From an uncultured Opitutia bacterium (GTDB lineage Bacteria; Verrucomicrobiota; Verrucomicrobiia; Opitutales; Opitutaceae), in contig CAJAYO010000417.1 of assembly GCA_903948415.1 (NCBI GenBank), positions 1 through 38,298 of the forward strand: a DNA stretch of 38,298 nt, in the 5' to 3' direction. The notes beneath the pieces are model-generated. The model did no database searches, had not been told where the DNA came from, and saw only the letters and a program-made list of their open reading frames with translations. Each line of letters starts with the position of its first letter. Within the stretch, counting starts at the first letter, position 1. Below, in pieces: positions 19,193 through 26,926 of the stretch. Position numbers and translations under genes: made by a program.

Positions 19193-19305
19193 AGGTGAGG
19201 GAGTGGCGACAGCAGAAAATCGCGTGCGGACGGCGGCAAACAGAATCGAGCGGGTGATTTTCGCGCGGCACGCGCCGCCGGTGAACAAGTCCCGGGGAAT
19301 TTCCG

Positions 19306-24147: not shown

Positions 24148-25080
24148 ATGAAAACTCCGTTTCGTTGGCTCCTCCTCACCGTCGACATGGCGCTGGCGCT
24201 CGGCCCGGTGATCCACGCCGCGATCCCGCAACGATGGCGAGAAAGAAGGTGCGGTGCTTTTTCAAAGTCTGCCGGCGTCGAACATGAGGCGATTAAGCGC
24301 GTGATGAAGGACGGCAAGCCCGCCTACGCTTTCGCCGTGCTGCGGGAAATCGGCGCGCAGCAGAATATCGAATTTACGTTTTCGAAAGACGGCAGCCTGT
24401 TCACGCCGGACTTTCTCGCGCAGTTCGACGCGTTCTTTTTTACACGACTGGCGACCTCACGCTGGCCAAGAACAGTCCGGTGCAGGGAGACGGAAACGCG
24501 CCGATGACCGCAGCCGGCAAGGCGGCGTTTCTCCAGACGATTGCCGACGGCAAGGGCTTTATCGGCACGCACAGCGCGGCCGAGCCATTTCACCCGCTGG
24601 GCAACCAGGAGCACGGCCCGGCCCGAAACTTGGATGACGGGGCCAAGTTGGACGATTAAACGCGCAGGCTCGGCGCGTTGTTTATCAAACATGACGCCCC
24701 GCAAAAAGGACGGCAGATCGTCGCAGACGGGATGTTTCCAGGGATGAGCGAGGTTCGGGCTGATTTCGGCCCGAATGAGGAATGGTATTCCCTGAAGGAT
24801 TTGGCGCCGGACCTCCACGTGCTGCTGGTAAAGGATAACTACGATGACGGGCCGTCCTACGCCCGGCCACCATATCCTGCCACCTGGGCGCGCCAGCACG
24901 GAAAAGGCCGGGTTTTCTATACCAGCATGGGCCACCGGGCCGATATTTGGACGAACCCGACGTTTCAGGCGGCACAGGTGGGCGGCTTGAATTGGGCGGC
25001 CGCACCGGGGCGATGCCGAGATTTCGCCCAACTTGGCGCGCGCGGCACCTCAGGCCCCCATGTTGTGCCGGCCGACGTCG
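24148..25080 (+). pseudogene. Decayed ThuA-domain (trehalose-utilisation-like) gene
   Basis: Fragments of one ThuA-domain protein follow each other in shifting frames. A signal-peptide-like start MKTPFRWLLLTVDMALALG is in frame 1. ARKKVRCF follows in frame 3 from about 24237, and SKSAGVEHEAIKR through LAQFDAFFF is in frame 1. Frame 3 then resumes with YTTGDLTLAKNS, GFIGTHSAAEPFHPLGNQ and KLDD. A TAA at 24657-24659 interrupts frame 3, apparently in place of a Tyr codon, before TRRLGALFIKHDAPQKG and GKGRVFYTSMGHRADIW. The end, GDAEISPNLARAAPQAPML, is in frame 1. The T runs at 24258-24262 and 24436-24441 fit one-base length changes. Intact relatives are secreted glutamine-amidotransferase-fold proteins of carbohydrate metabolism. 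Several separate lesions make it non-functional unless the sequence has errors. The edges are approximate. Confidence 0.85.
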
Positions 25081-25317: not shown

Positions 25318-25345
25318 ATACGGCACAATGGACATTATGTTAACT
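25318..25345. other. dif-like XerCD recombination site (candidate)
   Basis: The right arm TTATGTTAACT (25335-25345) matches the XerD-binding arm of E. coli dif, TTATGTTAAAT, at 10 of 11 positions, recalled from memory. The six-base centre is TGGACA, and the left arm ATACGGCACAA keeps the inner GCA-AA core of the XerC arm. Overall 19 of 28 positions agree with E. coli dif. An A/T-rich site of this kind is unlikely by chance in such G+C-rich DNA. It lies near the change of GC skew. It overlaps the malQ start codon, which is an alternative reason for A/T richness. Confidence 0.55.
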
Positions 25346-26926
25346 AAAGAAACTTCCCAAACGAGCCCTTTATCGCCCACGCTTTTCCATTGGCTGGACC
25401 ACCGCGCTGCCGGCGTGTTGCTGCATCCGACCTCCCTGCCGAGTCCCTTCGGCATCGGCGCCTTCGACGAGGCCGCGAAAGCGTTCGTCACGTTCCTCGC
25501 CGAGGCAGGAATGAAATATTGGCAACTCTGCCCGCTCGGACCGACCGGTTACGGCGATTCGCCCTACCAATGTTTCTCGTCGTTCGCGGGCAATCCCTAC
25601 CTGATCGATCCGGCCGCACTCGTTCGCGCGGGCCTGCTCGATCGTGCCGCTCTGCTGCCTCTCCAGACGCTCAATTCCGATCACGTCGATTTTGGCGCAC
25701 TCTATCAGCTGAAACGCCCCCTGTTGTTCTCCGCGCACGCCACTTGGCGGAAGAATCCGGCCGGGCCGCTGCCGTATGGCAGTTTCGCCGCCTTTCGCCG
25801 GCAGCACGGCACCTGGCTCGCCGGCTACGGACTCTTCTCAGCGCTCAAGGATCATTTTTCCGGCCGTCCCTGGTGGGAATGGCCCGCGGAGGTCCGCTCC
25901 CTCGCCGCCGCGCAAAAATCGCCGCTGAAAAATCAGGTCGCCGTCCGGGCCGAGGCCTACGAATTCATCCAATACCTCTTTTTCGGTCAATGGACGGAAA
26001 TCCGGGCCCACGCCGCGGGTCTGGGCGTCAGCATCATCGGCGACACGCCGATCTTCACGGCCCTCGACAGCGCCGATGTCTGGGCCAGCCCCCAGCTTTT
26101 TCAGCTCAACGCCACAACGGCCCGCCCCACGGCCGTGGCCGGCGTCCCGCCCGACTATTTTTCCGCTGATGGCCAGCTGTGGGGTAACCCGCTTTACGAT
26201 TGGCCGGCGCATGCCGCCGACGGCTACGCGTGGTGGCTTGAACGCTTGCGCGCCAGTTTCTCCCTCTGCGATGTCGTGCGCATCGACCATTTCCGCGGAT
26301 TCGATTCCTACTGGGCCATCCCGGCCGACGCGCCCACGGCGCGCACCGGCCAGTGGGAACGCGGTCCCGGGATCGATTTCTTCCAAAAGGTTGTCGCCGC
26401 CCTGCCCGGCGCGAAACTCATCGCCGAAGACCTCGGCGACCTCACCCCGTCGGTCGTCGCGCTGCGTGAAGCCACCGGACTGCCCGGCATGGCCATCCTC
26501 CAGTTCGCTTTTGGCGGTGATGCGAAAAACCTGTATCTGCCCCACAACCAGCGGCCGAACAGCGTGGTGTATCCTGGAACACATGACAACGACACGACGC
26601 TCGGCTGGTATCGGACGACGGACGAGAAAGCGCGCGACCATGTCCGCCGCTATTTCCGCGTGGGCGGCGAGGCCGTCGGCTGGGACTTCATCCGTTCGGC
26701 CTACGCGTCGGTCGCGAATCTCGCCGTCATTCCGCTGCAGGATGTGCTCAGTCTCGGTCCGGCGGCCCGCTTCAATACTCCCGGCAAAAGCCAGGGCAAC
26801 TGGACGTGGCGCTATCGGGCGGAACACCTCGCGGCGCTGCGCGACGGCACCCTGCCCTACCTTCGCGAACTGGCCGAGCTTTACGGTCGCACCACCGCGG
26901 CCGCGAAAACGTCGGCCACCCCTTGA
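25328..26926 (+). CDS. malQ: 4-alpha-glucanotransferase (GH77 amylomaltase)
   Basis: MalQ moves alpha-1,4-glucan segments between maltooligosaccharides or glycogen in the cytoplasm. The 532 residues fit the compact bacterial form. Signatures are RAAGVLLHPTSLPSPFGIG near 27-45, CPLGPTGYGDSPYQCFSSFAGNPYLI, VRIDHFRGFDSYW with nucleophile Asp320, LIAEDLGDL with the acid/base Glu, and VVYPGTHDNDTTLGWY with the third carboxylate. Two in-frame ATGs (25328 and 25337) lie inside the dif-like site. The first is used, but neither has a ribosome site, so the true N-terminus may be a few residues shorter. It stands alone, convergent with the exporter operon. No other glycogen genes are in the window. Confidence 0.95.
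   Translation: MDIMLTKETSQTSPLSPTLFHWLDHRAAGVLLHPTSLPSPFGIGAFDEAAKAFVTFLAEAGMKYWQLCPLGPTGYGDSPYQCFSSFAGNPYLIDPAALVRAGLLDRAALLPLQTLNSDHVDFGALYQLKRPLLFSAHATWRKNPAGPLPYGSFAAFRRQHGTWLAGYGLFSALKDHFSGRPWWEWPAEVRSLAAAQKSPLKNQVAVRAEAYEFIQYLFFGQWTEIRAHAAGLGVSIIGDTPIFTALDSADVWASPQLFQLNATTARPTAVAGVPPDYFSADGQLWGNPLYDWPAHAADGYAWWLERLRASFSLCDVVRIDHFRGFDSYWAIPADAPTARTGQWERGPGIDFFQKVVAALPGAKLIAEDLGDLTPSVVALREATGLPGMAILQFAFGGDAKNLYLPHNQRPNSVVYPGTHDNDTTLGWYRTTDEKARDHVRRYFRVGGEAVGWDFIRSAYASVANLAVIPLQDVLSLGPAARFNTPGKSQGNWTWRYRAEHLAALRDGTLPYLRELAELYGRTTAAAKTSATP

Follow-up and report, generated by a model that had tools for sequence, protein, structure and literature searches.

The DNA analysed here (the window, 38,298 nucleotides) is the whole of contig C417 in the 6.71 Mb draft genome of an uncultured Opitutia bacterium, an assembly of 977 contigs that is ~95% complete. 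Its forward strand carries malQ, which encodes a 4-alpha-glucanotransferase (25337-26926, stop codon included; Pfam Glyco_hydro_77, E 4.8e-163) and has its nearest named relatives in the Opitutaceae (Verrucomicrobiota). At the 5' end of this gene, on the same strand, lies the 28-bp sequence ATACGGCACAA TGGACA TTATGTTAACT (25318-25345), in which two 11-bp arms flank a 6-bp centre. The XerD-side arm, TTATGTTAACT (25335-25345), is identical to the E. coli arm TTATGTTAAAT at 10 of 11 bases, and its TTATGT is the part best conserved in relatives. The centre, TGGACA (25329-25334), varies among relatives, as expected for a dif centre. The XerC-side arm, ATACGGCACAA (25318-25328), keeps the core GGCACAA, which matches the family consensus CGCACAA at 6 of 7 positions with a one-base departure. 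An earlier note on this DNA had proposed a dif site here from the XerD-arm match, the 6-bp centre and the retained XerC core, and the sequence bears out all three. The arms also show partial dyad symmetry, with four of five positions symmetric between the inner CACAA and TTATG. The XerD-arm motif TTATGTTAAMT, with at most one mismatch allowed, occurs once in the window compared with 0.03 occurrences expected by chance. When we scored the window with a 28-column dif matrix derived from 93 loci of other genera, leaving out its own genus, the site reached 29.8 bits and the next best independent position scored -15, a gap of 45 bits. We regard the 28-base site as almost certainly the dif of this bacterium.

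Two ATG codons within the site are in the malQ frame, one across the border between the XerC arm and the centre (25328-25330), which is also in frame in the relative G026, and one within the XerD arm (25337-25339). The ATG in the XerD arm is in frame and open into malQ in 14 genomes, the present one included, from seven genera and two families (G099 was not counted among them), with predicted N-termini such as MSNQ or MLT. The most informative case is G026, the closest relative (MalQ 94% identical), where the malQ frame is closed by a stop 6 bases upstream of the dif core and the two dif ATGs are the only canonical starts ahead of the conserved region of MalQ. A search for canonical malQ starts outside dif likewise found none in G050, G024, G098 and G321, making five such genomes with G026. 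The overlap with the malQ start that the earlier note had described is thus supported, with the qualification that in the window itself the open malQ frame reaches 177 bases upstream of the core and includes several ATGs, so that the start of this malQ is inferred from G026. It is possible that the site is dif and that malQ starts elsewhere, for example at one of the ATGs that precede the core by 48, 126 or 153 bases, in which case the shared codon would be incidental. The open upstream frame would allow this, neither 25328 nor 25337 is preceded by a clear Shine-Dalgarno sequence, and in many relatives malQ begins downstream of dif. Against such a start, the five genomes leave no canonical codon outside dif, and the MalQ domain begins well past the dif ATGs, so no N-terminal extension is needed; we consider an outside start unlikely, at perhaps one chance in five. 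On the sequence, a start within dif would most likely be the ATG at 25337 in the XerD arm, and otherwise the ATG at 25328. When mapped onto a MalQ tree (73 proteins), the in-dif start required eight changes, and well supported branches made seven of these unavoidable, which indicates that this start arose or was lost repeatedly; several lineages would then have adopted the XerD arm to begin malQ. At three further loci, L132 (G129), L164 (G097) and L169 (G134), malQ lies beside dif and has no canonical in-frame start before the conserved region, which could reflect a misassembly, a frame shift or initiation at a non-canonical codon.

The association of dif with malQ extends well beyond the window. 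At least 75 genomes of several families have dif at or just upstream of malQ, with the two co-oriented in 73; in the remaining two, G049 and G294, dif is inverted and upstream of malQ. The genomes are fragmented, and all synteny counts given here are therefore lower bounds. Within the family, 62 genomes have dif and malQ on one contig, and in 49 of these (21 genera) they lie within 1.5 kb of each other, malQ always being beyond the XerD arm and co-oriented with dif. Outside the Opitutaceae, the same co-oriented arrangement is found in 24 more genomes from five further families. The neighbourhood on the other side is also shared, as lepB (signal peptidase I) lies a few to ~120 bases upstream of dif, in the order lepB-dif-malQ, at 31 loci (for example L144 in G059) from 31 genomes, 16 genera and four families; in the window this position is taken by a ThuA-like ORF. 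The adjacency of dif and malQ is probably old in the order, with lepB-dif-malQ as the ancestral arrangement. Shared descent, together with the cost of severing malQ from its promoter, is sufficient to explain the linkage. A functional coupling has also to be considered, in which the XerD arm supplies the malQ start, Xer proteins occupying dif at the terminus modulate malQ expression and tie it to segregation, and selection keeps the pair together across families. The co-orientation in 73 of 75 adjacent cases, with dif at the 5' end of malQ in several families, and the repeated gain or loss of the in-dif start would fit such coupling. However, many genomes have dif without malQ nearby and malQ without dif, the frequent retention of lepB beyond the opposite end of dif suggests simple conservation of local gene order, and descent with the promoter cost already suffices, and we consider coupling improbable, at odds of little better than one in ten.

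In seven genomes (G021, G033, G115, G003, G002, G051 and G020) dif and malQ are 4-121 kb apart; in every one malQ is co-oriented with dif and keeps its place beyond the XerD arm, a pattern resembling what an insertion of DNA between the two would produce. A separate feature is seen at L144, L145, L148 (g16), L168 and L236 (g39), where an inverted XerC-like core, TTGTGC, comes directly after the XerD arm and is itself immediately followed by the malQ ATG (TTGTGC-ATG). Counted with up to one mismatch, inverted cores are present at 11 of 101 loci compared with 2.5 in shuffled sequences; a third Xer half-site and shared descent are both possible explanations.

We next consider copy number and conservation. 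A scan of the draft genome with the 25-base core of the site returned a single match at up to three mismatches across all 6.71 Mb. Among 150 Opitutaceae genomes searched with the pattern CGCANAATNNNNATTATGTNNANT at no more than one mismatch, 123 had a match (46 of 49 genera), 119 of them exactly one copy, and the reversed pattern, used as a control, gave a single match in the whole set of 150; at this threshold no match was found in 27 genomes. Across the order, the pattern is present in 210 of 273 genomes. All seven genomes of the same genus carry dif, including four in which malQ is on a different contig, and finished genomes with malQ 50 kb to 2 Mb from dif still carry it. The presence of dif where malQ lies elsewhere indicates that conservation of malQ does not by itself account for that of dif. 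The earlier note had held that a better match elsewhere, at the global skew minimum or maximum, or loss of the site from close relatives that keep malQ, would count against dif; neither was observed.

The earlier note had also placed the replication terminus in this window. Since the genome is in 977 pieces, the skew evidence comes from the window and from finished relatives. In the window, the cumulative GC skew is maximal at 25014, ~300 bp from dif, a position confounded by gene strand. A single change point fits the skew best at 19267, away from dif, and taken by itself the window skew therefore carries little weight. The finished relatives are more telling. In G004, every sample between 2.40 and 4.32 Mb has positive skew, and from 4.56 Mb across zero to 1.92 Mb the skew is negative; dif, at 4.478 Mb, falls between these two halves, at a distance of 49% of the circle from the skew flip near 2.16 Mb. 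In G075, dif (1.789 Mb) sits inside the interval of 1.77-1.82 Mb across which the skew changes sign; elsewhere in this genome the skew is noisier. Among 63 dif loci flanked by 8 kb on either side, the skew peak falls within 100 bp of dif at 10 compared with 0.8 expected, and skew is higher on the left than on the right at 51; these loci are mutually related, so the associated probabilities are rough. For the proposed terminus, the nearby skew maximum and the finished genomes G004 and G075 speak in favor and the best change point in the window speaks against. In G004, dnaA (G004:C1, L191-L210) lies at 1.1 kb, ~250 kb from dif, compared with a skew origin near 2.16 Mb, and for this reason we did not use it to mark the origin; several further single-contig relatives likewise have dnaA far from the point opposite dif.

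The genome encodes the proteins that such a site would require. There is a XerC-like protein (C633) and a XerD-like protein (C303, its gene cut by the contig end), both scoring below the NCBIfam XerC and XerD equivalog cut-offs, and two FtsK_gamma proteins (C527 and C391) score over their cut-off. Two further readings of the site can be set aside. TTATGTTAACT includes a start codon, and AT-richness is common in start regions, yet a chance resemblance of the malQ start region to dif is very improbable and was rejected, as the site is conserved once per genome also where malQ is elsewhere, stands 45 bits above the next window position and lies at the skew terminus in finished relatives. Xer sites are likewise known on plasmids and integrated phages, and the second contig of G046 bears two dif-like sites, but a plasmid or mobile-element origin found no support and is just as improbable for a site that has one copy in the genome, ordinary chromosomal genes on both flanks and a position beside malQ and lepB conserved across genera.

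The reading we favor, with a probability of roughly 93%, is that the site is the chromosomal dif, that it holds the start codon of malQ (25337 or 25328) and that it is an old neighbor of this gene, with Xer binding, recombination and use of the start being predicted. XerC and XerD would bind the left and right arms, respectively, FtsK would bring two copies of dif together at the septum, and a single reciprocal exchange would turn a chromosome dimer into two monomers before cell division. Because both copies of dif are identical, the exchange would restore the same bases, and the site can therefore double as the 5' end of malQ. The established XerCD pathway is our basis for inferring that recombination leaves a start codon within the site undamaged. 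Overall, this is an ordinary dif by kind, located in an unusual and long-kept place.

The site resembles E. coli dif, the target of XerCD-FtsK, in its 28-bp length, 11-bp arms, 6-bp centre, XerD arm (10 of 11 bases) and single copy, as well as in its position at the terminus (here seen in finished relatives) and the accompanying XerC-like, XerD-like and FtsK-gamma genes. It differs in its XerC core (CGCATAA in E. coli, GGCACAA here) and in overlapping the start of a metabolic gene, and recombination at the present site is predicted. A dimer-resolution site with a fixed gene neighbor is known in difSL/XerS of streptococci and lactococci. There, however, the neighbor is the recombinase gene and one recombinase acts, whereas the present site belongs to the two-recombinase type and has malQ beside it. 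We know of no other dif with a fixed metabolic-gene neighbor.

Kono et al. (2011) predicted dif in all three Verrucomicrobia examined, including Opitutus terrae PB90-1, a member of the same phylum whose predicted dif is the same kind of site as the one described here (PMC3025954). In that survey, 93.9% of dif sites are given as non-coding, XerS and its 31-bp site are mentioned, and the text searched names neither malQ, lepB nor a start codon (PMC3025954). A search of the accessible literature found no report tying dif to a start codon or to malQ. The lasting linkage of dif with malQ and the doubling of a recombinase arm as a start codon thus appear to be undescribed in the searchable literature. 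That the same pair recurs across several families, with a recombinase-binding arm repeatedly offering a start codon, makes dif-malQ a clean setting in which to ask whether a gene start and a recombination site impose constraints on, or regulate, one another. The dif pattern can also be used to find termini in draft genomes of this poorly studied order, and lepB-dif-malQ can serve as a marker for the stability of gene order at the terminus. As a minor observation, the two dif-like sites on the second contig of G046 are copies of CGCACAATGTCCGTTATGTCTAAT (C2:21205 and C2:72420), present besides the chromosomal dif of that genome, and perhaps belong to a second replicon or an integrated element.
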